37,583 nt of DNA from an uncultured Pelagibacteraceae bacterium. GTDB lineage: Bacteria > Pseudomonadota > Alphaproteobacteria > Pelagibacterales > Pelagibacteraceae. This document shows positions 7,286 through 37,583 of the stretch, one piece after another. Position 1 is the first letter of the stretch; each line of letters starts with the position of its first letter. The notes under the pieces were generated by a model. The model saw only the letters and a program-made list of their open reading frames with translations, made no database searches and had not been told where the DNA came from. Position numbers and translations under genes: made by a program. The stretch spans positions 1 through 37,583 of the forward strand of contig CACJVG010000007.1 of assembly GCA_902596785.1 (NCBI GenBank). Reading direction: 5' to 3'.

Positions 7286-7663
7286 ATGAAAAAATACTCT
7301 CTTATAATATTTTTTAGTTTTTTGATCTGCTCATCAGTTTTAGCAAGAAGTACTGGCTGCAAGGAAGGTAACTGTGAAAATGGTTTTGGTAAATGGGTTT
7401 ACACCGATAAAACTACTTATGAAGGGGAGTGGGTTAATACTAAAAAACAAGGTCAAGGAGTAGAGACTTGGCCAAATGGATATATTTATAAAGGAGAATT
7501 TAAAAATAGTGAATGGAGTGGAATTGGAACGTTAACATTTCCTGATGGCTCCACTTATGAAGGGGAGTGGGCTAATGGTTTTATGAATGGCCAAGGAACA
7601 TTTACTTGGGCAGATGGAAAACAAAAATCAGGTACTTGGAAAAACGGTAAGTTACAAGAATAA
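7286..7663 (+). CDS. secreted MORN-repeat protein
   Basis: This 125-residue protein has a hydrophobic N-terminal signal sequence (residues 4-20, ending VLA). Four consecutive 23-residue MORN units follow at residues 33-55, 56-78, 79-101 and 102-124, each starting G.G and carrying a Y.GEW- or SGTW-type core. MORN repeats form short beta-hairpins that bind lipids or proteins; in bacteria their roles are mostly undefined. Units 1 and 3 are nearly identical in DNA over about 23 bases (around 7415 and 7553), a sign of recent internal duplication or conversion. The stop codon overlaps the next start (TAATG), so it is translationally coupled to the membrane protein downstream. It sits between tmoX and tmoW. 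A link to TMAO transport is inferred only from position. Confidence 0.85.
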   Translation: MKKYSLIIFFSFLICSSVLARSTGCKEGNCENGFGKWVYTDKTTYEGEWVNTKKQGQGVETWPNGYIYKGEFKNSEWSGIGTLTFPDGSTYEGEWANGFMNGQGTFTWADGKQKSGTWKNGKLQE

Positions 7664-13920: not shown

Positions 13921-15252
13921 TTATTTATTTAAAAAAGTTTCCATAGAGTCGTCCATTGCTTTTTCCCAAGGTGTATGATGAATTGGCGCAACTGATCCAG
14001 TCACTGGAGATGAAAACGATTTATTTCTATAAGTTAGAATATCCTCTACTTTATGGTGTTCCCATTCTTTGAAATGTTTTCTAATTAATTCAAAATCAAT
14101 TTTAGGATAATCAGACATATCATGAAGTTCTTTGGTATATTCTGTTTGAAAATCTATCATTTGATCAGGATTTTCTAATTTTTCCTCCATTGAAACCCAC
14201 TTATTAATGTCTTTATCTATCTCGTCGTCACTAGGCATTTTGATTTTCCCCATGATCACATCTCTCGCATACCATCCTTGACAATCAAACATATTAAATG
14301 TGTGAAACTGATCCTGCATACCTAAATATAAAAGTTTATGATTATCTTGCCACACAACTCCTTTGTAAAGTTTTGGTGGATACAATCTGTTATGTGTTTT
14401 TAATTTTAAACTTTCATCTAAAAATGGGAAATGATGAAGATATCCAGTGCATAAGATAACTACATCGGCATTTTGTTCTGTTCCGTCTTTAAATATAGCT
14501 TTTTTTCCATCTAACCTATCTAAGTAATGAACTTCTTTCATGCCTTTTGGCCATTTAAAGCCCATTGGGTTATGCCTGTAACCGATTGTTACACTTTTAG
14601 CGCCATATTTATTACATTGCAGGGCTACATCTTCAGCTGAATAACTGCTCCCCAAAACAATTACATCTTTTCCTCTAAACTCTTCTGCATCTCTAAAATC
14701 ATGTGAGTGCATTATCCTTCCTGGGAAAGAATTCATTCCTTCGTACTCAGGAATAAAAGGCACAGAAAAATGACCTGTAGAGACTACCACATAATCGAAT
14801 GTATCATTTAAAACTTTATTATTTACTTTGTCCTGGTAGCTAATTTCAAACTTATCATTTTTATAAACAGTGTTTGTGACTCTTGTATTAAATTTAATCT
14901 TACTTTTTATATTTCCCTTGCTCACTCTTCCTAAAATATAATCTTGCAGTACTTCTCTTGGAGGGAAAGAGGGAATTGGTTTTCCAAAATGTTCATCAAA
15001 AGAATAATCAGCAAATTCTAAACACTCTTTAGGTCCATTTGACCATAAGTATCTGTACATACTGTTAGGTACAGGATCTCCATATTGATCTGAACCAGTT
15101 CTCCAGTTGTAGTTCCATAGACCACCCCAACTTTCTTGTTTTTCAAAGCAAACTATTTCAGGAATTTTTTCTCCCTTTTTTTCTAAATGTTCAAATGCTC
15201 TTAAAATTGAAAGTCCACACGGACCAGCGCCAATGATTGCTACTTTTGACAT
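13921..15252 (-). CDS. tmm: trimethylamine monooxygenase (bacterial flavin-containing monooxygenase)
   Basis: This 443-residue FMO has the FAD motif GAGPCG (residues 8-13), the FMO-identifying motif FPGRIMHSHDF (176-186), the NADPH motif GSSYSAED (201-208), Asn72 in WSNGP at the position of the catalytic asparagine of FMOs, and a late CTGY motif. It oxidises trimethylamine to TMAO with NADPH and oxygen; the family also accepts dimethyl sulfide. The frame extends upstream to 15300, but the ATG at 15252 starts exactly at the Rossmann strand (MSKVAIIGAG) and has AGGAAA upstream. It is divergent from the iron alcohol dehydrogenase and convergent with gpsA. Its product TMAO is the substrate of Tdm encoded 8 kb away. 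Confidence 0.93.
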   Translation of the reverse strand: MSKVAIIGAGPCGLSILRAFEHLEKKGEKIPEIVCFEKQESWGGLWNYNWRTGSDQYGDPVPNSMYRYLWSNGPKECLEFADYSFDEHFGKPIPSFPPREVLQDYILGRVSKGNIKSKIKFNTRVTNTVYKNDKFEISYQDKVNNKVLNDTFDYVVVSTGHFSVPFIPEYEGMNSFPGRIMHSHDFRDAEEFRGKDVIVLGSSYSAEDVALQCNKYGAKSVTIGYRHNPMGFKWPKGMKEVHYLDRLDGKKAIFKDGTEQNADVVILCTGYLHHFPFLDESLKLKTHNRLYPPKLYKGVVWQDNHKLLYLGMQDQFHTFNMFDCQGWYARDVIMGKIKMPSDDEIDKDINKWVSMEEKLENPDQMIDFQTEYTKELHDMSDYPKIDFELIRKHFKEWEHHKVEDILTYRNKSFSSPVTGSVAPIHHTPWEKAMDDSMETFLNK

Positions 15253-15329
15253 AGAATTTTTCCTATCATTAATAAATTTATAAATATATCTTACTAACAA
15301 TTTTAAAAAAAATAAAATTATATTTTGTT

Positions 15330-18949: not shown

Positions 18950-19079
18950 AAATAATCCAAATAAATTAAAAGTTTTTTATCTGTGACTTCTTATCCTTTT
19001 TTGAGATATTTGGAAACTTCTAAAAAATATATATAAAAAAAATAAGCACTATTTAAATTGATTGTTATAAAATTAGTTG

Positions 19080-20336
19080 ATGCAAAAATATTCTATATTT
19101 AACCTTGTTAAAAACGCTTTTTCAAACCATGAAAATTGGGATTTGGCTTGGAAAGATCCAACACCTAAAGAGGAATATGATGTTGTAATTATAGGTGGTG
19201 GAGGCCATGGTTTAGCTACAGCTTATTATCTTGCTAAAGAACATAATATTACAAATGTTGCAATTATAGAAAAAGGATGGATCGGTGGTGGAAACGTAGG
19301 GCGTAATACTACAATTATTAGATCCAATTACATGCATGACGAAAATGGTTTGTTCAGTGAGTTTGGAATGGATTTATGGAGAAAGATGAGTCAGGATCTG
19401 AATTACAATGTAATGTTTTCTCCAAGAGGAATAATTAATCTTGCACATTCTGATGCACAAATGAATGCATACGCGAGAAGAGGAAATTCTATGAGATTAA
19501 ATGGAATAGATGCTGTTCTTTTAAATAGAGAGCAAGTTAAAGAAATTATTCCAATGGCTGATTTTTCTGAAAATGTAAGATTTCCAATTTTTGGTGGCTT
19601 GATGCAACCAAGTGCAGGCACAGCAAGACATGATGCTGTTGCATGGGGTTATGCACGTCAGGCAGACTCCATGGGGGTAGATATAATTCAAAATTGTGAG
19701 GTGATAGGTTTCGATGTTTCCGCTGGAAAAATAAAGGGAATAAGAACTTCACGAGGAAATATCAAAGCAAAAAAAGTTGGTATTTGCGTTGCGGGTAGCA
19801 CAAATATTTTAGCAGAAAAATTAAATATGACATTACCAATTGAAACTCATTTACTTCAAGCATGTGTTTCTGAGCCAGTTAAACCAGTTTTAGATAATGT
19901 AGTTACGTTTGGTGCAGGACACTTTTATGTAAGTCAATCTGACAAAGGTGAGATGGTAATGGGCGGTGATCTTGATGGTTATAATAGTTATGCTCAAAGA
20001 GGAAACTTACCAACATTGCAACATGTATTAACTGAAGGTATAGCCATGATGCCATTTTTGAGTAAATTAAAAATGCTTAGAACGTGGGGTGGTATTATGG
20101 ATATGTCAATGGATGGTTCACCTATTATCGATAAAACACACATTGATGGTTTGTATTTGAATTGTGGATGGTGCTATGGAGGATTTAAAGCTACACCTGC
20201 ATCGGGTTGGACATTTGCTCATACTATTGCTCAAGATAGAGTACATGAATTAAATGCTGGCTATAGCTTAAATAGATTTAATACTGGCCATCTTATTGAT
20301 GAAAAGGGACTTGGAACAAAAACCTGGATATCGTAA
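19080..20336 (+). CDS. soxB: heterotetrameric sarcosine oxidase (or N-methylglutamate dehydrogenase) beta subunit
   Basis: This 418-residue DAO-family flavoprotein has VVIIGGGGHGLATAYYL near residues 35-51 for FAD. TARHDAVAWGYARQAD carries His184, the position of the histidine that covalently holds FMN in the known enzymes. GWCYGGFKATPASGW lies near the C-terminus. It demethylates sarcosine or an N-methylamino acid, passing the C1 unit to the alpha subunit. The frame can be read from a TTG one codon earlier, but the ATG at 19080 is preferred; no Shine-Dalgarno is seen and a TATAAA at about 19065 suggests a very short leader. It begins the operon soxB-D-A-G and abuts soxD. Confidence 0.93.
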   Translation: MQKYSIFNLVKNAFSNHENWDLAWKDPTPKEEYDVVIIGGGGHGLATAYYLAKEHNITNVAIIEKGWIGGGNVGRNTTIIRSNYMHDENGLFSEFGMDLWRKMSQDLNYNVMFSPRGIINLAHSDAQMNAYARRGNSMRLNGIDAVLLNREQVKEIIPMADFSENVRFPIFGGLMQPSAGTARHDAVAWGYARQADSMGVDIIQNCEVIGFDVSAGKIKGIRTSRGNIKAKKVGICVAGSTNILAEKLNMTLPIETHLLQACVSEPVKPVLDNVVTFGAGHFYVSQSDKGEMVMGGDLDGYNSYAQRGNLPTLQHVLTEGIAMMPFLSKLKMLRTWGGIMDMSMDGSPIIDKTHIDGLYLNCGWCYGGFKATPASGWTFAHTIAQDRVHELNAGYSLNRFNTGHLIDEKGLGTKTWIS

Positions 20337-20606
20337 ATGCTTTACATAAATTGCCCACACTGTGGAATGAGATCTCAAAATGAATTTTCATATGGTGGCG
20401 ATGCAAGTGTTAAAAGACCAGAACTTAATAAAGAAGTTTCTGATCAAGAATGGGATAATTTTGTTTACAATAGAAAAAGTTTAAGAGGAAAGCATTTAGA
20501 GCTATGGCAACATATTTCTGGATGTAGACAATGGATAAAGGTTGAGAGAGATACCGCAACTCATGAAATTTTCAGAACCTTCAAAGCTGATGAGGAAGTT
20601 GCTTAA
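20337..20606 (+). CDS. soxD: sarcosine oxidase delta subunit
   Basis: This is an 89-residue zinc-binding subunit. CPHCGMRSQNEF gives Cys6, His8 and Cys9, and a late HISGCRQW segment gives further ligands. ETFKADE-like C-terminal residues (FRTFKADEEVA) match SoxD. It is a structural subunit holding zinc in the heterotetramer. The start follows the soxB stop directly and its stop overlaps the soxA start by one base (TAATG), consistent with stoichiometric synthesis. Confidence 0.93.
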   Translation: MLYINCPHCGMRSQNEFSYGGDASVKRPELNKEVSDQEWDNFVYNRKSLRGKHLELWQHISGCRQWIKVERDTATHEIFRTFKADEEVA

Positions 20607-23602
20607 TGACTCAAGCTTTTAGAATTGAAAATGGCGGGTTAATAAATAGAGATAAAAAATTATCTTTTAAATTTAATGGAAAAACTTACTTTGGTTATGA
20701 AGGTGACACATTAGCTTCAGCTTTATTAGCAAATGGAGTTCATTTAGTAGGAAGAAGTTTTAAATATCACAGACCCAGAGGTTTCTTTGGAGCAGGTGTA
20801 GATGAACCTTATGCAGTTGTTCAACTTTATAGAAATGGTGAAACAGAGCCAAATATAAAAGCTACGGAACAGGAGTTGTTTGACGGTTTAGAAGCTAAAA
20901 GTGTTAATTGTTGGCCAAGTGTTAATTTTGACATAGGTGCAATCAATAATTTTCTAAAAATTTTTTTACCAGCAGGTTTTTATTACAAAACTTTTATGTG
21001 GCCAAAAAGTTTTTGGTATCGAATTTATGAGCCTTTTATAAGAAAAGCAGCTGGTTTAGGTGTAGCTTCAACTAAACATGACAAAGAAAGGTATGAACAT
21101 AAATACGAATATTGCGATTTATTAATTGCAGGTTCAGGACCTTCGGGATTAGCAGGTGCGTATGCTGCAGCAAAAAATGGAGCTAAAGTAATTTTAGCTG
21201 AAGATAAACCAAGATTTGGTGGATCTTTATTAACTAGTGATGTCAATATTGGAAATCAATCAGGAAAAGATTGGGCCGAGGGAATAATTGCAGAACTAAA
21301 AACAATGCCAAATGTTGTTGTAAAAAATAGATCTCAAATTTTTGGATACTATGATCACAACATGCTTGTGATGTCAGAAAAAGTTAGTGATCATTTGCCA
21401 TCAACTAAAAAATATCACCCTAACAAAAGGTTATGGTACATTCGTGCAAAAGAAGTTTTGATTTCCTCTGGATCAATTGAAAGACCGATAGTTTTTGGAA
21501 ATAATGATACACCAGGAGTTATGCTCTCTTCAGCCGCTAAAGAATATCTAAAAGTATATGGTGTTTTAGTTGGAAGAAAACCACTGGTGTTTACAAATAA
21601 TGACAGTGGATATGAAACAGCAATTGAATTTAAAAAACACGGAGTAGATCCAGTTGTTTTAGATTCAAGAAAAAATCCTGCGTCAGAAATAATTGATGAA
21701 GCAAAAAATTTAGGAATTAACATTAAAAATTCATATGTTGTGGTTGCAGCACAAGGATACAAAAAAGTAAAATCTGCAGATATTGCAAGTATTTCTGAAG
21801 ATAAAAAACAACTTGGTAAAATAGAAAATATTCAATGTGATTGTATTTGTGTTTCAGGTTTTTGGACACCAACTGTTCATTTAGCTTCACAATCAGGGAA
21901 TAAGACAAAGTTTAAAGAAGAAATTGATGCATTTGTTCCAGGACAATCAAAACAAAATGAAATCACTTTAGGTGCTGCTAATGGAGAATTTTCACTGGAG
22001 GAAACTCTAAAAACTTCATTTAAAGCAGGAAGTGAATTATCAAAAAAAATTACTCAAAAAGATAATGAAATAGCTGTTCCAAACGTTGTTGAAAAGAAAT
22101 CTTCTCAACATGATAAGTTTTGGTGTGTTCCATTGCCAAAAGGTAAAAATTACAAAAGATTTTTAGATTTTCAAAATGATGTAGCAGTATCTGATGTAGA
22201 AATAGCTCTAAGAGAAGGGTATCGATCAATTGAACATGTTAAAAGATATACAACTCTAGGAATGGCAACAGACCAAGGAAAAACAAGCAATTTAAATGGA
22301 TTGCAATTAGTATCCGAAATTGAAAACAAAGTAGTTCCTGCAGTAGGTCATACAACTTTTAGACCTCCATATACTCCAGTTTCTATTGGAGCAATAGTAG
22401 GAAGAGAGGTTGGAAAACATTCAAAACCAACAAGAAAATCTCCAATGCATACATGGCATGAGAAAAATAATGCAGTTTTTGTTGATGCGGGTGTTTGGTT
22501 AAGACCAAGATATTATAAAAGAGGAAATGAGAATTTATTTGAGGCATCTAAAAGAGAAGCAAAAAATGTGAGAACAAATGTAGGAGTTTGTGACGTAACA
22601 ACTTTAGGAAAAATAGATATTAAAGGACCAGATGCAGCGGAGTTATTAAATAGAGTTTATACAAATGCATGGTTGAAGCTACCAGTTGGTAAAGCTAGAT
22701 ACGGTGTAATGTTAAGAGAAGATGGAATTGTTATGGATGACGGTACAACTACAAGAATTTCAGAAAATCATTATCATATGACCACTACTACAGCTCAAGC
22801 GGCAAATGTTCTTTCTCATTTAGAATATTATTTGCAACTCGTTTGGCCTGAATTAAATGTGAATGTAGTTTCAACTACAGAACAGTGGGCTGGAGCAGCT
22901 ATTGCTGGACCTAAATCTAGAGATTTATTACAAAAATTATTTCAAAATTCTGATGTATCAAATGAAGGTTTACCATTTATGGGCTATATGGAGGGAGATT
23001 TATTTGGTGTTAAAGCAAGAATATTTAGAATTTCGTTTTCAGGTGAGCTTGCTTATGAGGTAAATGTTGAATCTGATTATGGAAATTTTATGTGGGAAAA
23101 AATAATCGAAGTTGGTAAAGAATTTAATATTCAACCATATGGAACAGAAGCATTATCAACTCTTAGAATTGAGATGGGACATGTTGCCGGATCAGAACTT
23201 GATGGTAGAACAATTCCATTCGATAACGCCTTAGAAGGTCTTGTTAGTAAAAAGAAAGATTTTATTGGAAAAAGATCATTACAAAGATCTGCATTTATAG
23301 CTGAAGATAGACAAAGAATAGTAGGCGTAGTTCCATTAGATAAACAAACAAGTATACCAGAAGGCTCTCACTTAGTTAAAGATGATAAAGCACCATTACC
23401 AAATCCAAAATTAGGTCATATCTCTGCATCTTGTTGGAGTGTTGAATATGACAACCCTTTTTCTTTGGCAATTTTGAAAGATGGAAAAAATATGATCGGT
23501 CAAAAGCTTTTTGCAATGTCGCCACTTAAAAACAAAGTAATACCAGTTGAGATAGTTTCATCACATTATGTAGACCCGAAAGGTGAAAGAGTTAGATCAT
23601 GA
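20606..23602 (+). CDS. soxA: sarcosine oxidase (or N-methylglutamate dehydrogenase) alpha subunit
   Basis: This 998-residue protein is the usual size. The N-terminal 2Fe-2S-like fold region ([24 protein letters not shown]) is followed by a dinucleotide-binding domain ([17 protein letters not shown], about residues 172-188). A C-terminal GcvT/tetrahydrofolate domain runs from about 610, with the Asp pair in [12 protein letters not shown] (about 707-718). The alpha subunit receives the methylene group from the beta active site through an internal channel and makes 5,10-methylene-THF. Its last four bases overlap the soxG start (ATGA). Neither the alpha nor the beta sequence settles by eye whether the complex acts on sarcosine or on N-methylglutamate. 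Confidence 0.93.
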
Positions 23603-24186
23603 CATTAATTTCAGCTTTATCAAATGTTCATACAAAGGGTCAATTCGGAGATTATGAGGGTAAAAATGAAAATGATATACTTAAAATATCTGAAATCAAA
23701 AATTTATTAATTGTTCAAATAGTTCAGTACAAAAATTCTTCAGTTTCATTTGAGGGTATTGATATTGATGGTTTAAAGTTAAAAAATGAACCTTTAACCG
23801 TGGTATTTAATGAAAATACAAGAATTATGTGGAATGGACCAAAAAACTGGCTTTTAGTTTCAACAAAAAAAAATTTAATTAAAAATGTATCAGATAATTT
23901 TAAAGATACAGATTTTGCAATAACAGATTTATCTCACTCTAGAGCTATTATTGAAATCGAAGGAAATGATTCGATAGAAGTTTTGAAAAAAGGATGTCCT
24001 TTTAATTTTAACAAATTAGATAAAAACAATTCAATAAACTCAACTTATAATGGAATAGCTTTTACTGTAGACAGGTTGAGTGATGACCCAAATAAAGTAA
24101 GGATATTTGCGTTAAGAAGCTTTGGTGAATCTTTATATCACTCTATAACTGATGCATCTTTAGAGTTTGGTTTTGAAAATATATAA
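23599..24186 (+). CDS. soxG: sarcosine oxidase gamma subunit
   Basis: This 195-residue protein has the fold pattern of SoxG, a distant GcvT relative. [23 protein letters not shown] near the middle and [32 protein letters not shown] fit the GcvT-like framework without catalytic residues. It completes the soxBDAG operon and overlaps soxA by four bases. The start is an ATG within soxA with no separate ribosome binding site, so re-initiation is likely. Its 3' end faces the DMT transporter gene across 10 bases, where a 12-base palindrome AAACTTAAGTTT lies. Confidence 0.88.
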
Positions 24187-25968: not shown

Positions 25969-26715
25969 CTAATTTTTATGCTTAACCATAGCTGAATGAG
26001 CTAAAATTAAATTAGGATCTAAGAAAACTTTTGATGATTTAACATTTTTAAATGATTTAAATGCAAAAATTGCGATAGGGAGCTCTGTACAACCTAAAAT
26101 AATTTTTTTACACTTCATTTTGATTAAGGAATCAATTGCAGGTTTAATTGCTTTTGCTGCAGCCTTCACATTACCCATTTTAACTAATTTAATTGCCTTA
26201 TTAACTGATGATTTTTGTATTTTTTGAGTTGGCTCTATCAATTGATAATCTTTTTCAAAAATTTTTTTATAAATTCCTGTTTTAAGAGTACCCTCAGTTG
26301 CTAAGAGACCAACTTTGGAGCTTTCCTTACATTTTTTTTTTGTAAATTTGAAAACTTCTTTGGGCATATTGATTATTGGAATATTAATTTTATTTTGTAA
26401 ATCATCGAACCAATAATGGGCCGTATTGCAAGGTATAACTATAAATTTACATTTATTCTTTTCTAGAAGCTTACAACCTTTGAGTAAGCTTTTTAAAACT
26501 TTGTTATATTTTGCTTTACTTTTTTTATTGGTAGATTTGTTTGAAAGATTTTTAGTTTGAGAGCCAATAGATTCAGGTCTGCCAGGAATATTTGATTTAT
26601 TATAAAGTATAAACAATGGATATTCTTGATCAATTTTTCCTCTGTTTAAAACTGCAAGTTTGTTACAAAAATCAAGACCTGCTTGAGTTCCCATTCCACC
26701 TAAAATTCCAATCAT
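25969..26715 (-). CDS. aspartate/glutamate racemase family protein
   Basis: This 248-residue protein starts MIGILGGMGTQAGLDF, as Asp/Glu racemases do, and has both catalytic cysteines: Cys96 in IPCNTAHYW and Cys209 in ILGCTELPI. With both present it should be an active cofactor-independent racemase, most likely for aspartate, or a relative such as hydantoin racemase. A Lys/Ser-rich insert lies near residues 55-70. It leads a two-gene unit with the hypothetical protein downstream. The D-amino acid product or its use is not evident from neighbours. Confidence 0.87.
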   Translation of the reverse strand: MIGILGGMGTQAGLDFCNKLAVLNRGKIDQEYPLFILYNKSNIPGRPESIGSQTKNLSNKSTNKKSKAKYNKVLKSLLKGCKLLEKNKCKFIVIPCNTAHYWFDDLQNKINIPIINMPKEVFKFTKKKCKESSKVGLLATEGTLKTGIYKKIFEKDYQLIEPTQKIQKSSVNKAIKLVKMGNVKAAAKAIKPAIDSLIKMKCKKIILGCTELPIAIFAFKSFKNVKSSKVFLDPNLILAHSAMVKHKN

Positions 26716-29186: not shown

Positions 29187-29280
29187 GAAAATTGATCAAT
29201 CTGTTTATTTCAAAATTAACTTAAAATTTCAATAAAATTAATAGTATTTAAAATACATATTGATTAGAGTTAAGCATACT

Positions 29281-30246
29281 ATGAATTATAAAATCGACAA
29301 TCTTCAATATTGTAATTGGTCTAGGAAAATCTTTGAGATTAACAGATCTGCTGGACTAGATGCTGTACATGTTACCATTGTCTACCATGAAGATTTTGAT
29401 GAATTACAACTCGAAATAAAAAAATGGGAAAATTTATTTAAAGAAAACTCTGATTTAATTTTCCTTGGTAAGAATTTTCAAGATATTGATAAAGCTAATA
29501 AAGAAAATAAAACTGCAATATTCTTTGGTTTTCAAAACTGTTCACCAATTGAAGATGACATAAATCTTGTTGAAAAGGTTCATCAATTAGGATGCAGATT
29601 TATGCAACTTACTTACAATAACCAGTCTTTGCTAGCAACAGGTTGTTATGAAAAAGTAGATAGCGGGGTTACAAATTTTGGACGTGAGGTTATAAGAGAA
29701 ATGAATAGAGTTGGCCTTGTAGTTGACATGTCACATTCTGCAGAAAAAAGCACTCTAGATGCAATTGAATTCAGTGAAAAACCAATTGCAATTACTCATG
29801 CCAATCCTTCTTTTTGGCATCCAGCTAAAAGAAACAAATCCTCAGATTTATTAAAAATTTTGAGTGATAGTGGTGGCATGTTAGGCTTATCATTATACCC
29901 TCATCACTTAAAAGATAACACAAATTGTACTCTAGATAGTTTTTGCGAAATGGTGGCAAAAACAGCTGAAATAATGGATGTAAAAAAAATAGGAATAGGA
30001 TCAGATCTTTGTTTAGATCATCCAGATACTGTTGTTGAATGGATGAGAAATGGTTCTTGGTCTAAAAATAAAAATTATGGTGAAGGTTCAAAAAATAAAC
30101 CAGGTTTTCCAAAACAACCTGACTGGTTTCTTGATGCAAGAGGGTTCTCAAATATTGAAAAAGGTCTAAAAAAAGCAGGTTTTTCAGATACCGAGACACA
30201 TGGAATACTTGGAAATAACTGGTACAATTTTTATAAATCTATTTAA
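29281..30246 (+). CDS. M19 membrane-dipeptidase-like protein with incomplete metal site
   Basis: This 321-residue M19-family TIM barrel is recognisable from DMSHSAEKS (His152), AITHANPSFWHPAKRN (His173) and IGIGSD (Asp242). Canonical enzymes also need an N-terminal H.D pair (DGHND) and a bridging Glu. Here the N-terminus reads IDNLQY (residues 5-10) and the Glu position appears to be Gln85 (FGFQNC), so part of the binuclear zinc site is gone. It may be a non-peptidase or a binder. The frame can be read from a TTG at 29260, but the ATG at 29281 fits better. M19-like genes also occur in the dimethylglycine catabolic region of Pseudomonas (PA5396, from memory), which would fit this methylamine-rich context. 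The next gene starts 2 bases after its stop. Confidence 0.8.
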   Translation: MNYKIDNLQYCNWSRKIFEINRSAGLDAVHVTIVYHEDFDELQLEIKKWENLFKENSDLIFLGKNFQDIDKANKENKTAIFFGFQNCSPIEDDINLVEKVHQLGCRFMQLTYNNQSLLATGCYEKVDSGVTNFGREVIREMNRVGLVVDMSHSAEKSTLDAIEFSEKPIAITHANPSFWHPAKRNKSSDLLKILSDSGGMLGLSLYPHHLKDNTNCTLDSFCEMVAKTAEIMDVKKIGIGSDLCLDHPDTVVEWMRNGSWSKNKNYGEGSKNKPGFPKQPDWFLDARGFSNIEKGLKKAGFSDTETHGILGNNWYNFYKSI

Positions 30247-30248
30247 TT

Positions 30249-31910
30249 ATGAAAATTGAATTAAGAGACCCGAATAAGATAATGAAATTATCAAGGCTAG
30301 GATCTTTTCATCAATCAAAATTATCTTTTTTAAGAAGTTTTCTTAATGAATTTAAAGACTGGGAGTATAAAAGAGATTTATTTAATTTAAACGAAAATGG
30401 CTTTGGAGAAGCTGTTTATTCATTTACAAAAAATAAAAGAGTTTATTCTTTAGTTTGTTTTGCAAATGAAATCAAAGATGAAGAAAGATCAGATAGAGTT
30501 ATTGCAACAAAATGGGATGCAGCTTTTACATTACATGATGGAGTCCCAACTAAGAAAGATATTGAAAGATTAAAAAATGAAGTTCCAAAACAAGAAGTTG
30601 GTAGACTTTCTTATAAAGAATTAACTTTATCTAGAGCAAACAAATCAGTAAGAGTTTATAATCACGTAGTTGAAAGTTTGAGCAAAGGTCAACAGCCAGA
30701 TTTAAACTTATTATCAAAAGTAGGCTATTTATATAGAACTACGGCAGTATATGGCTCGGGTAAATTTGGTCTTGCAGATCGGTTTAGAATTAAAAATCGT
30801 GAAGAAATTAACGGTCCATTCAGATTAGAAATGATGCTGGTATATTTGGTAAGACAATTTACTTTTGATCAAGTTAATCATGTTGCTTATCATAAAAATT
30901 CAAAAAAAGCCGTTAAGCTAGATGACAATATTTGTAAAAACTTGGGAATAGGCAATTCCACAGGCTTGGGTATGGCTCCATTTATAGTCAATCACCCAAC
31001 TCTATTAAATAATTGGATTTTAAGTAGAGAAAAAGCACTTAAGAAAATTAGAGAAATAAAAGATGTGGAAAGTCAAGATAGAGATTTGTTTATAGATTGT
31101 GTAAAAAAATCTTTAAAAAATATTACAAGCTGGAATACTGATAGTGAATATCAGCAAACAAAAATCACATCATTACTAAAAGATGTTGAAAAATTTTTAA
31201 ACTTTATAAATAAAGATTTTAATTTTGAGATCGAATATCCTTTTAACAAAATATATCAATGGTTGGAGGATAATACTTGTGAGGAATGTATTGAATACAT
31301 AGTTTCAATAATGATGGAACCTTATAATAATATTGTAAATCCTTTGGTAAAAGAAATGAGCTCAGATGAAGAGAAATATTTTAATATTCCAACTTATAGA
31401 AAAGTTGAAGAATTGCGAAATATAATTGAAGCAAAGTATCCAAACATTTTAGATATTAATTTTGAAGAAAAAGAAAATAATAAAAACTTTTGGTTTATTT
31501 CAAAAAATAAAGAGGAACCTAGATTAGCTGATCGTTTTGAGGAGCATGGATCAGAATTAGAGCAGCCTTTAGCAATAGCAAGAGATATAAAAAAACTTTA
31601 TGACAAATTATTAGTCTCAAAAAATAGTTTAACTATTGCTGAATTTTTAACATCAAATTCTGAATTAAGACATGTCGTGAGGAGAGCATTCATTGTAGAA
31701 AAATTTCCTTATTCAGAAATACAAGATAATACAATTGGTAAAGATTTAATGCCTATTGATATGCTTAGATTAAAATTGTCTTTTTTTGGGGCATTAAAAT
31801 TTGATCCACGATCTGACAAATGGTTAAGAATTTGCATGTTCCAAGGTGCTCCACTTCCAAATGAGCTAAAAAGTTATGATGAACAGTGGGTATATAAAAC
31901 CAATATTTAA
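30249..31910 (+). CDS. large conserved-looking protein of unknown function (553 residues)
   Basis: I do not recognise a domain in this protein. It has no signal peptide and no clear membrane segment. The N-terminal 120 residues alternate strands and helices (YSLVCFANEI, DAAFTLHDGVPT). A motif-like core around residues 150-245 includes GYLYRTTAVYGSGKFGLADRF, a histidine-containing FDQVNHVAYHK and NSTGLGMAPFIVNHPT. The C-terminal half is helical and charged, ending with RVVRRAF-type and FFGALKFDPRSDKWLRICMFQG segments. Gly-rich GSGKFG is not a full Walker A. It lies 2 bases after the M19-like gene and 2 bases before the DUF3726-like gene, so all are probably one operon and possibly one complex or pathway. 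Confidence 0.8.
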   Translation: MKIELRDPNKIMKLSRLGSFHQSKLSFLRSFLNEFKDWEYKRDLFNLNENGFGEAVYSFTKNKRVYSLVCFANEIKDEERSDRVIATKWDAAFTLHDGVPTKKDIERLKNEVPKQEVGRLSYKELTLSRANKSVRVYNHVVESLSKGQQPDLNLLSKVGYLYRTTAVYGSGKFGLADRFRIKNREEINGPFRLEMMLVYLVRQFTFDQVNHVAYHKNSKKAVKLDDNICKNLGIGNSTGLGMAPFIVNHPTLLNNWILSREKALKKIREIKDVESQDRDLFIDCVKKSLKNITSWNTDSEYQQTKITSLLKDVEKFLNFINKDFNFEIEYPFNKIYQWLEDNTCEECIEYIVSIMMEPYNNIVNPLVKEMSSDEEKYFNIPTYRKVEELRNIIEAKYPNILDINFEEKENNKNFWFISKNKEEPRLADRFEEHGSELEQPLAIARDIKKLYDKLLVSKNSLTIAEFLTSNSELRHVVRRAFIVEKFPYSEIQDNTIGKDLMPIDMLRLKLSFFGALKFDPRSDKWLRICMFQGAPLPNELKSYDEQWVYKTNI

Positions 31911-31912
31911 TA

Positions 31913-32524
31913 ATGAAATCACTGAGTGAAATTGAAACTACTGTTAAAAGAGCTTCAAAGGCAGCAGGATATTCTTGGGGAGTTTCTGAGGAAACAGGAA
32001 AAAGTATAAGATTGTTAGAGCTATTCAGCTTACCAGGTATTAAGCACCTTAATGAATATTTAAATCAAAAAAATAAAAGTAAATTTGAAAAATTAAATTT
32101 AATTAGTGAAAATAACTCTTCATCGAATAATCCTTACTGTCCAATTACTTTAGGTGTTAGTTTTTTAGATCAAATAAATGTTTTAGAAAATATAAAAAAA
32201 ATTGAGTTTAAAAATGTTGCTTATCCAATAATTTTTATTTCCTTCATAAGTCGTTCATCAGAAATTATTGGAAAAAAAATCAATGTAAAAATAGATGAAA
32301 AAAAAATGTTACTAAATCTAAATGTAAATATTTTTTCAAATTTTATTGATCAAGAATTTCCAAAGATAGCGAATACGATTGAGGTCAATCTACTTGAAAA
32401 TGAAGATAACTTTACAGACGAAGAATGGAATAATTTATACAAGTTATCCGAAGAAACTTTTGTTGAAGAGAGTGACAGTTTAAAAGAGGGTGCGGCAGGT
32501 GCCGGTTTGACAGATAATGATTGA
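31913..32524 (+). CDS. DUF3726-like protein
   Basis: This is a 203-residue protein. The N-terminus (MKSLSEIETTVKRASKAAGYSWGVSEETGKSIRLLE) matches my memory of DUF3726 proteins of alphaproteobacteria, which begin with an LNEIE..ARKAARGAG.sWGLAEEAG-type segment. The middle is strand-rich (YPIIFISFISRSSEI) and the C-terminal 40 residues are strongly acidic, ending in GAAGAGLTDND. The function of the family is unknown to me. It follows the 553-residue gene by 2 bases and overlaps the small CxxC gene by 8 bases. The family name is moderately secure, the role is not. Confidence 0.72.
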   Translation: MKSLSEIETTVKRASKAAGYSWGVSEETGKSIRLLELFSLPGIKHLNEYLNQKNKSKFEKLNLISENNSSSNNPYCPITLGVSFLDQINVLENIKKIEFKNVAYPIIFISFISRSSEIIGKKINVKIDEKKMLLNLNVNIFSNFIDQEFPKIANTIEVNLLENEDNFTDEEWNNLYKLSEETFVEESDSLKEGAAGAGLTDND

Positions 32525-32684
32525 TAAAATTGACGAAAAAAATCTAAAGGTAGATACTGAAGAATTAAACAATATTTGTGATGAATGCAAAGAAGAAGAT
32601 GAGAGTGTCACTCAAAATTTAATTCTTACTGGGTTTAAATTATGTAAATCGTGTAGAGTATCTAAGACTATATTTCCACTTTAG
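32517..32684 (+). CDS. small two-CxxC putative zinc-binding protein (55 residues)
   Basis: An ATG at 32517, overlapping the end of the DUF3726-like gene by 8 bases, opens a 55-codon frame ending in TAG at 32684. The protein has CDEC at residues 21-24 and CKSC at residues 43-46, the layout of a small treble-clef or rubredoxin-like zinc knuckle, with an acidic N-terminus and basic C-terminal part (CRVSKTIF). The start/stop overlap and the four cysteines in CxxC pairs argue that it is a real fourth gene of the M19-like operon. Its 3' end overlaps the Yip1-family gene on the other strand by 4 bases. Confidence 0.7.
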   Translation: MIDKIDEKNLKVDTEELNNICDECKEEDESVTQNLILTGFKLCKSCRVSKTIFPL

Positions 32685-33381: not shown

Positions 33382-34740
33382 TTAGCCTTTTACAACTTCT
33401 CTTGTATTTGCGTTGAAAGACTCTTTGAATGGAATATCCACAACCACAGCATCTACAGGTGTTCCTGGAGTGTCCGAGTATTTTTCTGGAAGATGAACTT
33501 TAAACTTAGTTCCAACTTTACCTTTTGGAAATCCATTAGGGTTTAAAGTTCCATCAAATGGAACATAACCCATAGCAATATTAGTTTTCTTTTCTGGATG
33601 CCACCATGGTGATGTAATAAATCCCACTGGATCTCCACCACTTTCTGGTGATACTAACCAAAAGTCTGGCGCATAATCGTCAATAGGCTTACCACCCAAT
33701 TCCATCCCAACTAATTGAAGTTTGTATGGTTTTTGACCAGCTTTTATGTCTGCTTTCATTTTCTCTAATGCAGCTTTACCAACATAGTCAGCTTTTTTAT
33801 TCCATTCACCCTTACCAGATAATGAAACTTGATAACCTAAATTACATTGAAACGGATTATGTTGTTGATCCATGTCTTGCCCCCAAGAAAGAATACCAGC
33901 TTGTATTCTTCTGTGGTGGGCAGGTGCAATAACCATCAATTTATGTTTTTTTCCTGCTTCCAATACAGCATTCCACATATCTTCAGCATATAAAGTTGCA
34001 TTTCTTAAATATATCTCATAACCAGCTTCTCCGGAAAAACCAGATTGAGAAATTACACAACTTCTTCCACCAATTGTTGCTTCTGCTAATCCGTAGAAAG
34101 GCATATTATCAAAATCAACTTGGTCTCCACAAAGATCTTTCATTAAAGCTTTTGATTTAGGACCTTGAATTTGTACTGGACATGCATCAATTTCTTCAAT
34201 TGTGCAATTAAATCTTCCATCTGCATTTACACCTTGTAAATACATTCCAATATCAGAGTCTGATAATGAAAACCAAAATTCATCTTTTGAAATTCTTAAA
34301 AGAATTGGATCATTTAAAACTCCTCCATAAGCATTACATAAGATTACATATCTTGCTCTCATAGGAGAAATTTTTGTTGCATCTCTAGTTATAACGTAAT
34401 CAGTAAATTTTTCTGCATCTGGACCTTTAACTCTTATTTGTCTTTCAACAGCTACATTCCACATTGTTACATGGTTTACGATTGCATCATATTCAACCAT
34501 TGCTCCACCATCTTCAGGTTTTACATAACCTCTTGGGTGATAAATACGATTGTATACAGTTGCTCTCCAACAACCTGCCTGCATTGATAAATGCCAATAA
34601 GGTGATTTTCTCACCCTTGTTGAAATTAATAACTCAACTTTAGTTGGCCCACTTTGTCTTAAATTGTATGGTACTTCTCTATCAGATTGATCAACAGAAG
34701 TAACATGTTGTACTTTAGTATAGTCAAATTCTTTAGACAT
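33382..34740 (-). CDS. DmdA/GcvT-family tetrahydrofolate-dependent methyltransferase-like protein
   Basis: This 452-residue GcvT-fold protein is closer in motif to DMSP demethylase DmdA than to glycine cleavage T-protein. Shared features are an STRVRKSPYW N-terminal segment, TVYNRIYHPRG, the WNVAVERQIRVKGPDA stretch, and GGVLNDPILLRI, where GcvT has DD and DmdA has ND. QIQGPKSKALM and SGFSGEAGYEIYL also follow the fold. DmdA transfers a methyl group to THF, giving 5-methyl-THF. This protein is about 80 residues longer than the SAR11 DmdA I remember (369), with extensions at both ends, so it is probably a paralogue with another methylated substrate. Its start overlaps the MetF-like gene by 8 bases, a partner able to oxidise 5-methyl-THF. 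A LigM-like O-demethylase is an alternative. Confidence 0.8.
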   Translation of the reverse strand: MSKEFDYTKVQHVTSVDQSDREVPYNLRQSGPTKVELLISTRVRKSPYWHLSMQAGCWRATVYNRIYHPRGYVKPEDGGAMVEYDAIVNHVTMWNVAVERQIRVKGPDAEKFTDYVITRDATKISPMRARYVILCNAYGGVLNDPILLRISKDEFWFSLSDSDIGMYLQGVNADGRFNCTIEEIDACPVQIQGPKSKALMKDLCGDQVDFDNMPFYGLAEATIGGRSCVISQSGFSGEAGYEIYLRNATLYAEDMWNAVLEAGKKHKLMVIAPAHHRRIQAGILSWGQDMDQQHNPFQCNLGYQVSLSGKGEWNKKADYVGKAALEKMKADIKAGQKPYKLQLVGMELGGKPIDDYAPDFWLVSPESGGDPVGFITSPWWHPEKKTNIAMGYVPFDGTLNPNGFPKGKVGTKFKVHLPEKYSDTPGTPVDAVVVDIPFKESFNANTREVVKG

Positions 34741-35461
34741 AACTATTCTCCTTCAACCACTTGTTAGTTTCCTTCAAGCCGCCGAATGTATAAATGTGGA
34801 AGTTATCAGTATGCGATTTAACTTTCCCAATTAAATCATTAGGGTCTTTAGGTTTCAATAAATCCAATGCCTTACTAAAATTAGATTTAAGAAAGTTTAA
34901 GGAATTTTTTGCCCCCACAATATTAGCAAATTTAATCAAGCTAGATATTTTTAATGGCCCAGTAATTCCCACATGCACTGGTACACTTTGCTTAGAAATA
35001 AAATCTATAATAGGCTGAGGATCAAGTAACCATTGTGTTACAATATAATCAGCGTAAGGCTTTTTATCTATCATAGCTTTTTCTAAATCTGAGTCGGATA
35101 TATCAGGACTCCCCTCTGGATGTCCAGCAATTCCTATTTTCATTTTTTCAAAATAACCTGTCTCTAAAAGTTGAAATGAACTATCAAATTTACCTGCTGG
35201 TTCTCTTCCACCTCCAATAATCAAGGCTTGCTTTACTCCTCCATCTTTGCATCTAGAAACATAATCTTTAAGTTCTTTTTCATCATGCATTGATCTAGCA
35301 GGAAAATGAGGTACGGGGTTAAATCCTTTTTTTACAAGTTCTACTGCTTTATCAGCAGTTTCTTTATAATCACCCCCAGGTAGCATTGTTATATAAATGT
35401 CAGACAACGCTGGAACTGTATCAACCTCAGTTTTAGGACCTATTTCCAATGAAAAATTCAT
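34733..35461 (-). CDS. short methylenetetrahydrofolate reductase (MetF)-like protein
   Basis: This 242-residue protein shows a MetF barrel in reduced form: SLEIGPKTEV for the N-terminal Glu, GFNPVPHFPARSM in place of PHLTC..R, LIIGGGREPAGKF where MetF has LRGD.P.G, IGIAGHPEGSPD and ADYIVTQWLLDPQ. Canonical MetF has about 280-300 residues, so the C-terminal part is shortened and the loop around the flavin/NADH site is changed (GGGR for RGD). It probably acts in the oxidative direction, converting 5-methyl-THF made by the neighbouring DmdA-like protein to 5,10-methylene-THF. The 8-base overlap with that gene supports coupling. Its electron acceptor is unknown. Confidence 0.8.
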   Translation of the reverse strand: MNFSLEIGPKTEVDTVPALSDIYITMLPGGDYKETADKAVELVKKGFNPVPHFPARSMHDEKELKDYVSRCKDGGVKQALIIGGGREPAGKFDSSFQLLETGYFEKMKIGIAGHPEGSPDISDSDLEKAMIDKKPYADYIVTQWLLDPQPIIDFISKQSVPVHVGITGPLKISSLIKFANIVGAKNSLNFLKSNFSKALDLLKPKDPNDLIGKVKSHTDNFHIYTFGGLKETNKWLKENSYV

Positions 35462-35518: not shown

Positions 35519-36406
35519 TTACTTTTTTAACTGACCTCTGTGCTTTTGAATTCTTTGTCCGTACTGTTGAGTTACTCTATCAAAGATAATTGCCAGAGCT
35601 ACGATTGCTAAACCATTCATCATTCCAAGAGCTAAATATTGGTTGGAAATAGCTTGTAAAATCGGTACTCCTAAACCTTTTACACCTATCATAGACGCTA
35701 TTACTACCATCGCTAAAGCCATCATAATTGTCTGATTAATTCCAGCAAAAATTGTTGGTAGTGAAAGTGGGATTTGAACTGATTTTAATTTTTGCATTGG
35801 TGTTGCTCCAAAGGCTTCACTAGCCTCAAGTGTTTCTTTGTCAACTTCTCTAATTCCGAGGTTGGTTAATCTCACAATAGGGGGGAGAGCATAAATACAT
35901 ACAGCAAGTAGGCCAGGCACTTTACCAATACCAAGGAGCATAATTATTGGAATTAAATACACAAAGCTAGGAATTGTTTGCATCATATCTAAAACAGGTA
36001 AAATTGCTTTTTCTGCTCTTGCAGATTTTGACATGACAATTCCAATTGGAATTCCAACTACAATACAAACTAATGTTGAAACAGAAATTATAGCAACTGT
36101 AGCCATACAATTTTTCCACATTCCGAAGTAGCCAATTACCAAGAAACAAACCACTGTACCAATAACAAGTTTAACACTTCTTGATCCAATCCAAGCTAAT
36201 AAAGCAAATACACCGATTACTAAAGGCCAAGGACTATTTACTAATAATTTTTCTAACCAAATTAAAAAATGTAACAGCGGATCAAAAAAACCTTCAATAC
36301 CATCACCATACGCTCTAGAAAATTCTTTGAAACTAGTATCAATTCCTTTTTTAAGCTCTCTAAGAGCCGTTCTATCCATTACAGGAATTTTATTAAAGAA
36401 GTCCAT
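35519..36406 (-). CDS. opuAB: betaine/osmolyte ABC transporter permease (OpuAB/ProW type)
   Basis: This 295-residue permease has about six membrane helices and the MetI-type EAA loop EASEAFGATPMQKLKSVQIPL near residues 196-216. The N-terminal soluble lead (MDFFNKIPVMDRTALRELKKG) and VYLIPIIMLLGIGKVPG are typical of ProW/OpuAB. It forms the channel for the ligand delivered by the upstream binding protein. It starts 49 bases after that gene, beyond a strong hairpin, and is followed by the MetF-like gene after 57 bases. No ATPase gene is adjacent within the window. Confidence 0.9.
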   Translation of the reverse strand: MDFFNKIPVMDRTALRELKKGIDTSFKEFSRAYGDGIEGFFDPLLHFLIWLEKLLVNSPWPLVIGVFALLAWIGSRSVKLVIGTVVCFLVIGYFGMWKNCMATVAIISVSTLVCIVVGIPIGIVMSKSARAEKAILPVLDMMQTIPSFVYLIPIIMLLGIGKVPGLLAVCIYALPPIVRLTNLGIREVDKETLEASEAFGATPMQKLKSVQIPLSLPTIFAGINQTIMMALAMVVIASMIGVKGLGVPILQAISNQYLALGMMNGLAIVALAIIFDRVTQQYGQRIQKHRGQLKK

Positions 36407-36455: not shown

Positions 36456-37466
36456 TTAAAGTGCTTTTTTGATTTTTTTTGCAGCATCACTTGAAACCCA
36501 TTTACTCCAAACACTTTCTTGTGTTTTTAGGAATTCAATTGCAGCATCAGCACCTTCTGCTTGGTTTTCACCCATCCAAACTAACATACCGTTCATAACT
36601 GGACCTGGGTATGTTCTCTTCTTAAAGTATTCCATACCAGCACTTCCAGCTGTATTTTTGAAATTATCAGTTACGATTGTGTAAACTTCAGATTTTGTCC
36701 ATGAAGTTGCTTTAGGGTCTCCACATTCTTGTTCTGGTAAAACTATACATTTATCCCAGTTATCTTTTCCACCCCAAGCTCCCATATCTACAGCTCTCAT
36801 ATCATATTTACCAATGATAGCTGTTGGTGACCAATAGTAACCAAACCAGTTTTCACCTCGCTCAGCAGCTTTAGCAATTGAACCATCTAATCCTGCAGCA
36901 GAACCTGTTTCAACAATAGCCCAACCTTTTGCTTCCATGTCAAAAGCTTTGTAAAGATTTCTATTACTTAGCTCACAGTTCCAACCTGGAGGACAAATAT
37001 GAAAACCACCTTTTGATGGATCTTCTGGATGAGGAAACAGATCTGGTCTTGCTAAAATTGCTTCAGCAGTTGTTAGCTCTGGATGTTTTTTAAGTGTGTG
37101 AGGTAATACCCACCAACCTTCACCTAAACCAGTAATTGGCGCTTTGTTAAGTGAGTGCATTTTACCTTCATCAACAGCTTTATTCAAAGCGATGATAGCA
37201 GCGTTAGCCCAAAACTCTGGAGCAACATCTGGCTCACCTTTTTCTTGCATTGATGTAAATGTAGGCATTGTAGCACCAGGCACTAATTCTACTGAACATC
37301 CATAACCTTCTTCTAATATGATCTTGTCAACTTCAGCCATAAAGTTTGCTGAAGCCCAGTTCATATTAGCAATTGTTATATTTCCACAAGCTGCATTAGC
37401 AACACTTCCAAAGGAAGTAAGACCAAACACAACAGCTAGTGAAAGAAGTATTCTTTTAATCTTCAT
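36456..37466 (-). CDS. opuAC: betaine/osmolyte ABC transporter substrate-binding protein (OpuAC/ProX type)
   Basis: This 336-residue protein has a signal peptide (MKIKRILLSLAVVFGLTSFG, cleavage probably after ANA near residue 25). The OpuAC-type mature part has Trp-rich ligand segments (IANMNWASANF, PEFWANAAI, EGWWVLP, WFGYYWSPTA) that could form an aromatic cage for a quaternary amine or sulfonium compound. Four cysteines (in FHICPPGWNCEL and DKCIVLPEQECG) probably form disulfides. The frame extends to 37490, but the ATG at 37466 directly precedes the signal peptide and has GGGAG 7 bases upstream. It heads the operon with permease, MetF-like and DmdA-like genes. Its ligand cannot be read from sequence; glycine betaine, DMSP and related osmolytes are candidates. 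Confidence 0.88.
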   Translation of the reverse strand: MKIKRILLSLAVVFGLTSFGSVANAACGNITIANMNWASANFMAEVDKIILEEGYGCSVELVPGATMPTFTSMQEKGEPDVAPEFWANAAIIALNKAVDEGKMHSLNKAPITGLGEGWWVLPHTLKKHPELTTAEAILARPDLFPHPEDPSKGGFHICPPGWNCELSNRNLYKAFDMEAKGWAIVETGSAAGLDGSIAKAAERGENWFGYYWSPTAIIGKYDMRAVDMGAWGGKDNWDKCIVLPEQECGDPKATSWTKSEVYTIVTDNFKNTAGSAGMEYFKKRTYPGPVMNGMLVWMGENQAEGADAAIEFLKTQESVWSKWVSSDAAKKIKKAL

Positions 37467-37583
37467 TATATCTCCCAACATTTGATTCATTTAAAAGTTA
37501 AATTGAACATATTGAGCATAATAATGCAAATTTAATTCAACTATTGGTTGTAGCAAAATTGTCTTTAACTGACTAAAATTTTT

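Follow-up and report, generated by a model that had tools for sequence, protein, structure and literature searches.

A four-gene SAR11 operon as a likely form of the homarine catabolic operon core

Homarine (N-methylpicolinate) is a common algal compound. In 2026, Ferrer-Gonzalez et al. reportedly described homABCDER, an operon of Rhodobacterales, SAR11 and SAR116 that has N-methylglutamate and glutamate among its metabolites. PMC13390433, citing Ferrer-Gonzalez et al. (doi 10.1038/s41564-026-02313-7), reports a role for Mgd in homarine catabolism. In surface seawater, homarine was reported to make up as much as 3% of the particulate carbon (PMC8269262), and a correction (PMC10134881) states that the concentrations had been overstated. 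Here we analysed 37,583 nucleotides of DNA from an uncultured Pelagibacteraceae bacterium (assembly GCA_902596785.1, 77% complete in 53 contigs; contig CACJVG010000007.1), a stretch that we call the window. It carries a compact four-gene operon, the quartet, which we consider reasonably likely to be the SAR11 form of the homarine catabolic operon core. The four genes are:

29281-30246, + strand: M19-like amidohydrolase (PF01244, E = 1.4e-68) with a non-canonical metal site; proposed N-formyl/enamide hydrolase
30249-31910, + strand: P2, 553 residues, with no Pfam or NCBIfam match over cut-off; proposed subunit of a ring-attacking or ring-opening enzyme
31913-32524, + strand: DUF3726 protein, 203 residues (PF12525, E = 1.8e-22); proposed partner of P2
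32517-32684, + strand: CxxC...CxxC zinc-ribbon-like protein, 55 residues; lineage-specific accessory gene

The open reading frame (ORF) coordinates bear out the spacing given in an earlier note on this DNA: gaps of 2 and 2 bases, then an 8-base overlap, with all four ORFs on the + strand. For the M19-like gene, an alternative TTG start at 29260 is possible. We compared 103 loci from the window's genus, 23 of them from genus genomes and 80 being the closest public contig records among the matches listed (P2 identity at least 69%, genus assumed; near-identical genomes kept in the set). M19 adjoins P2 in 100 of 100 loci with enough upstream DNA, DUF3726 adjoins P2 in 100 of 101 testable loci, and in 93 of 101 the CxxC gene shares exactly 8 bases with the end of DUF3726. 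The arrangement of the quartet is not due to chance.

M19, P2 and DUF3726 form one unit that is conserved far beyond SAR11. P2 is present in 40 of 61 relatives and in 39 of 289 genomes of the class. Besides the window's genus, 37 class genomes hold P2; four of these were omitted as fragmentary (G124, G134, G137 and G148), and from the other 33, all outside the window's order, 35 P2 loci (L090–L124) were fetched, some on short contigs. In 27 of these 35 loci, M19 immediately precedes P2 in the same orientation; in the remainder it is separated from P2 by a BCCT gene (two), on the other strand (one), far away (one) or not found (four). DUF3726 was recognised in 33 of the 35 with a hidden Markov model built partly from these same loci. 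Across the class, DUF3726 occurs in 32 of 289 genomes, and all 32 are among the 39 with P2 (hypergeometric probability 4e-36, ignoring kinship); it occurs in 0 of 14 control genomes. The idea that the four proteins share a function, put forward in the earlier note with conservation outside SAR11 as its touchstone, is thus upheld for M19, P2 and DUF3726, which do stay together there, and is not upheld for the fourth gene.

The CxxC gene is real but lineage-specific, seen only in Pelagibacteraceae-type loci. None of 8 loci from f2, the sister family within SAR11, and neither of 2 loci from family f32 has it. Its protein, with a conserved core holding two CxxC pairs, matched no family over cut-off (best Pfam E = 0.017; HypA at 0.027). 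We rejected the gene as a part of the general module: among the 40 loci first examined, 3 have it, all SAR11, and 37 do not (L127 incomplete).

Related modules occur in Rhodobacterales, Hyphomicrobiales, Caballeronia and Vibrio. In Ruegeria sp. TM1040 (L131), the order is SoxBDAG, a helix-turn-helix regulator, LysR, aldehyde dehydrogenase (ALDH), M19, BCCT, P2, DUF3726 and a member of the Ldh_2 family, and Phaeobacter inhibens DSM 17395 (L130) is arranged nearly in the same way. Shinella (L134) holds SoxBDAG, GlxA, LysR, ALDH, M19, P2, DUF3726, Ldh_2, a betaine ABC transporter and purU; Aminobacter (L138) has the genes from LysR through Ldh_2 plus a betaine ABC transporter; and Mesorhizobium (L132) has a set of the LysR-ALDH-M19-(BCCT)-P2-DUF3726-Ldh_2 type in which P2 and DUF3726 are fused. 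Outside the class, Caballeronia and Vibrio (L135 and L136) show LysR-ALDH-M19-BCCT-P2-DUF3726. Counted at fixed thresholds over 49 P2 loci (L090–L138), a close ALDH is found in 19, a close Ldh_2 in 20, LysR in 12, SoxA in 9, an OpuA-type gene in 8 and BCCT in 6, and 7 loci (L092, L101, L130, L131, L132, L134 and L138) combine all of LysR, ALDH, M19, P2, DUF3726 and Ldh_2. In Phaeobacter inhibens, Ldh_2 (L130:11339-12500) appears as two ORFs of 198 and 146 residues with no listed coding sequence, and may be broken. Two genomes (G214 and G312) have two P2 loci each, and neither a close ALDH nor a close Ldh_2 accompanies the second copies (L118 and L119) within the DNA fetched.

This gene set fits the reported homarine operon, and the description of the system as undescribed in the earlier note is probably wrong. 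The five structural genes and LysR regulator beside genes of the N-methylglutamate dehydrogenase (NMGDH) type presumably correspond to homABCDER; a literature search for homABCDER found no papers. The five structural genes and regulator occur together in the Ruegeria, Shinella, Aminobacter and Mesorhizobium loci, and the NMGDH link and the presence in SAR11 are further points of agreement. Of the five structural families, the window holds just three in cis; it also differs in lacking a regulator and in having the extra CxxC gene. It is probably a reduced variant of the known operon.

Several lines of evidence bear on the link to N-methylglutamate. First, about 5 kb upstream of the quartet, the window carries an NMGDH-type Sox operon:

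19077-20336, + strand: SoxB-like subunit of the NMGDH-type operon (TIGR01373, 669.5 bits)
20606-23602, + strand: SoxA-like subunit, NMGDH type (TIGR01372, 1329 bits)
23599-24186, + strand: SoxG-like subunit of the NMGDH-type operon (TIGR01375, 61.9 bits, below the cut-off of 143.95)

Second, we placed its SoxA in a tree of 49 rows built from SoxA-like genes of class genomes, for which 40 neighbourhoods were fetched, half of them picked by similarity to the TM1040 copy, so that the sample is not random. One row was dropped because the same gene is fuller in another (L106 and L303, respectively), and L107 sits on a long branch. Mgs/GmaS genes were recognised near 5 SoxA copies; these labels come from gene order and agree with the domain types (glutamine amidotransferase, FwdC-like, glutamate synthase large subunit and type III glutamine synthetase). 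A single side of 36 rows (SH-aLRT 100) holds 11 of 11 copies linked to P2/M19 and 5 of 5 linked to Mgs, a distribution with a chance of 0.002 by simple counting that ignores kinship and the similarity-based sampling. Within this side, the two kinds of label are intermixed (3 changes, a number as low as this in 46 of 500 shuffles). The second SoxA of the window's genome belongs to the opposite side, which has 13 rows. The nearest row to the window's SoxA outside SAR11 (L320) is flanked by MgsABC. Because its side of the tree holds the Mgs-linked copies and this nearest row is MgsABC-flanked, the operon at 19077-24186 is most likely an N-methylglutamate dehydrogenase.

Third, the linked Sox-like operon resembles MgdABCD N-methylglutamate dehydrogenase in grouping with Mgs-linked copies, but in Ruegeria sp. 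TM1040, Phaeobacter and Shinella the NMGDH-type genes adjoin the P2 operon with no Mgs or GmaS in the fetched stretch. An NMGDH beside P2 and without Mgs/GmaS is what a pathway producing N-methylglutamate would need. The NMGDH-type genes, together with betaine-type transporters, support the connection to the use of N-methyl compounds that the earlier note had drawn.

The dehydrogenase also bears on two rival readings. The unit could act in the breakdown of dimethylglycine, glycine betaine or sarcosine, in keeping with a window rich in methylated-amine genes and with an M19 relative in the dimethylglycine region of Pseudomonas, a link that the literature matches listed did not confirm, since none of them mentions PA5396 or PA5397. 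The linked SoxA copies, however, group with the Mgs-linked ones, and 0 of 11 lie on the other side, for which a sarcosine oxidase identity is presumed without a named reference; moreover, betaine demethylation as known needs no part of the set. We therefore regard these substrates as very improbable. Equally hard to credit is that the set degrades hydroxyproline betaine or a related proline betaine, which would suit the ketoglutarate-semialdehyde-like ALDH, the cyclic imino acid substrates of the Ldh_2 reductase relative and the betaine-type transporters in P2 loci but leaves the NMGDH linkage unexplained.

The M19-like protein belongs to PF01244 (231.8 bits; cut-off 26), and its closest solved relative is 2i5g, an 'amidohydrolase' (E = 1.9e-56). 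The binuclear zinc site of M19 enzymes is formed by HxD, Glu, His and His. Like M19 membrane dipeptidases, the window's protein is of this Pfam family and keeps both His residues and one Asp; unlike them, it is without the N-terminal HxD, and the position of the catalytic Glu is taken by Gln85. Since all 24 aligned homologues (24 of 24) have the same Q85, H152, H173 and D242, and 2i5g likewise has no N-terminal HxD, the altered metal site is, on these alignments, a fixed trait of a subfamily and not the damage that had been suspected.

P2 resembles no family that we could name. Its weak Pfam matches, all below cut-off, reach only E = 0.26; none of 36 P2 homologues matched a Pfam family over cut-off; a profile search of the PDB gave no credible relative (best E = 0.43); and hhalign comparison with 18 gene clusters, Ldh_2 included, and with DUF3726 marked it as unrelated (probabilities at most 2.0). 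Among its invariant residues are R83, D90, N236, R425 and R507. In Mesorhizobium sp. 131-2-1, P2 and DUF3726 are fused as one 814-residue protein.

The DUF3726 protein belongs to PF12525 (79.4 bits; cut-off 22.1). Its C-terminal tail has the consensus GAGAGLxDND, with A195-G196 invariant among 21 aligned homologues and a terminal DND in 15 of the 21, counted by eye. A profile search of the PDB gave nothing credible (best E = 0.57), and a literature search for DUF3726 found no papers. We report here a profile likeness between its N-terminal region and the N-terminal domain of Ldh_2, with which it is collinear. The hhalign probability was 9 with a first small alignment, 31 and 80 with larger ones and 13–83 with subsets of the data (the subset labelled 'non' still holds P2-linked copies), and the decoys stayed at or below 0.9 (18 other gene clusters, run in both directions) and 0.6 (20 alignments with shuffled columns). 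This suggests, and does not prove, common descent. Unlike Ldh_2 reductases such as delta1-piperideine-2-carboxylate reductase, DUF3726 is a separate protein, and of the 335 Ldh_2 positions its alignment spans roughly the first 134, or 207 in one subset.

How might these proteins convert homarine to N-methylglutamate? Leaving the methyl group aside, the conversion goes from the six carbons of homarine to the five of N-methylglutamate and must shed one. If C2, with its carboxylate, becomes the alpha carbon, the carbon lost would be C6, most simply as formate via a formamide. We propose that P2 and DUF3726 would attack the pyridinium ring such that the C5–C6 bond breaks and C6 stays on the nitrogen as the formamide. 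ALDH would then oxidise C5 to a carboxylate, the M19 protein would hydrolyse the formamide to formate and an enamine or imine, and the Ldh_2 enzyme would reduce the imine to N-methylglutamate. NMG dehydrogenase would finally yield glutamate and a one-carbon unit. Ring attack falls to P2 and DUF3726 in this proposal as the pair left after the other steps are assigned. For the TM1040 ALDH, the two best models, neither of them reaching its cut-off, are 2,5-dioxovalerate dehydrogenase and ketoglutarate-semialdehyde dehydrogenase, and the best solved relatives of the Ldh_2 protein are 1wtj, 2cwf and 2cwh (E = 4.8e-53), of which 1wtj is delta1-piperideine-2-carboxylate reductase, an imine reductase. 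RidA is an imine/enamine deaminase; its gene lies 4–8 kb from M19 in Neorhizobium and Sinorhizobium, and a RidA-like domain is encoded beside M19 in another class genome (G117). In inferred logic only, the scheme resembles the trigonelline pathway, which uses the TgnAB oxygenase (PMC8269262). The logic in common would be the opening of an N-methylpyridinium ring, a formamide intermediate and an aldehyde dehydrogenase. Unlike TgnAB, P2 and DUF3726 match no oxygenase family.

The window's genus would have a shortened version of this route. ALDH, Ldh_2 and the regulator were not found in cis in the window. Among 20 genomes, made up of SAR11 genomes and two from family f32, a close Ldh_2 (44–52% identity) occurs only in G039, G050, G090 and G319. 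Of these four, G090 and G319 alone also have a close ALDH (54–55%), while in G039 and G050 the ALDH beside Ldh_2 is more distant (36–37%). The window's genus, lacking both close homologues, therefore has a reduced gene set. Here the aldehyde and reduction steps would have to be carried out by genes elsewhere or give way to another exit, for example release of methylamine into the GmaS pathway of the window, and the 55-residue CxxC protein would be a lineage-specific accessory.

If SAR11, whose members are extremely abundant ocean heterotrophs, uses homarine through such a stripped operon, the flow of carbon and nitrogen from algae to SAR11 could be traced by gene. P2 and DUF3726 would then be a chemically unusual ring-opening pair with no described function in Pfam or NCBIfam. 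In a more far-reaching version, the two would be a new class of two-subunit enzyme that opens the N-methylpyridinium ring and shows no cofactor motif that we recognised. DUF3726 would descend from the N-terminal domain of an Ldh_2 reductase, now standing alone and recruited to partner P2; the trio with M19 would be a portable ring-opening cassette; and SAR11, aided by a zinc-ribbon protein of its own, would run a stripped version whose product enters the methylamine pathway. As a whole, we consider this less likely than not.

A number of observations weigh against homarine catabolism as the function of the quartet. SoxA is near P2 in only 9 of the 49 P2 loci; of the 33 SoxA copies that have no link to P2/M19 or to Mgs, 20 also fall in the 36-row side of the tree; and the methylamine pathway could by itself account for the window's NMGDH genes. 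In P2, we recognised no cofactor motif. In the window's genome, the best matches to the TM1040 proteins are 31% identical for ALDH and 29% for Ldh_2, and those to the proteins of the SAR11 locus L128 are 37% and 32%; in seven other genomes of the genus, the values are 31–33% and 29–37%.

Other observations of this kind concern the range of the module itself, and favour a general module for N-ring opening or enamide cleavage that serves several substrates, homarine being just one of them and the SAR11 substrate perhaps another N-methyl heterocycle or betaine. Distant P2 relatives (about 28–33% identity to the P2 query) in Sinorhizobium and Neorhizobium stand with M19, IclR, polyamine-type ABC transporters and the RidA gene mentioned above, with no adjoining ALDH or Ldh_2, and for another, in Mesorhizobium ciceri, the annotation of the fetched stretch lists no M19. 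At the thresholds used, 12 of the 35 loci outside the order have none of ALDH, Ldh_2, BCCT and OpuA, and the absence of a close ALDH and Ldh_2 from the window's genus fits the same view. In one class genome (L296:12103-17655), M19 and Ldh_2 genes, accompanied by a RidA-like gene and TRAP transporter genes, lie opposite an NMGDH-type SoxA; P2 and DUF3726 were not found there, and the locus may represent a related pathway with another first step. On the other side, each of the remaining 23 of those 35 loci has one or more of ALDH, Ldh_2, BCCT and OpuA. We consider a general module of this kind unlikely, and prefer the homarine operon core.

Further genes of the window surround the quartet. Downstream lie two transporter genes, with roles inferred from their families:

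35519-36406, - strand: OpuAB-type permease (PF00528); possible betaine/homarine uptake
36456-37490, - strand: OpuAC-type substrate-binding protein (PF04069, E = 2.7e-46)

Between these and the quartet is a pair of genes (33382-35461, - strand). The first encodes a GcvT-like protein of 452 residues, whose closest NCBIfam model is dimethylsulfoniopropionate demethylase (225 bits; cut-off 410), and the second a weakly MTHFR-like protein of 242 residues (22.5 bits; cut-off 24). The pair is conserved beside the quartet in three SAR11 loci (L125, L126 and L129) and looks like a tetrahydrofolate-dependent demethylase system.

The window also appears to hold a methylamine island. At its left edge (2-1965, - strand) are a GmaS-like gene (490-1965) and a partial gene that clusters with MgsA-like proteins and has no NCBIfam match. 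A DUF1989-GcvT protein (3815-6154, - strand) scores 1083.7 bits against the trimethylamine N-oxide demethylase model, just under its cut-off of 1100, and an FMO-like gene lies at 13921-15300. A gene for a 125-residue MORN-repeat protein (7286-7663, + strand) stands beside an OpuAC gene. Finally, a protein of the Asp/Glu racemase family is encoded at 25969-26715 (- strand), with cysteate racemase as its best NCBIfam match (151.7 bits; cut-off 190).

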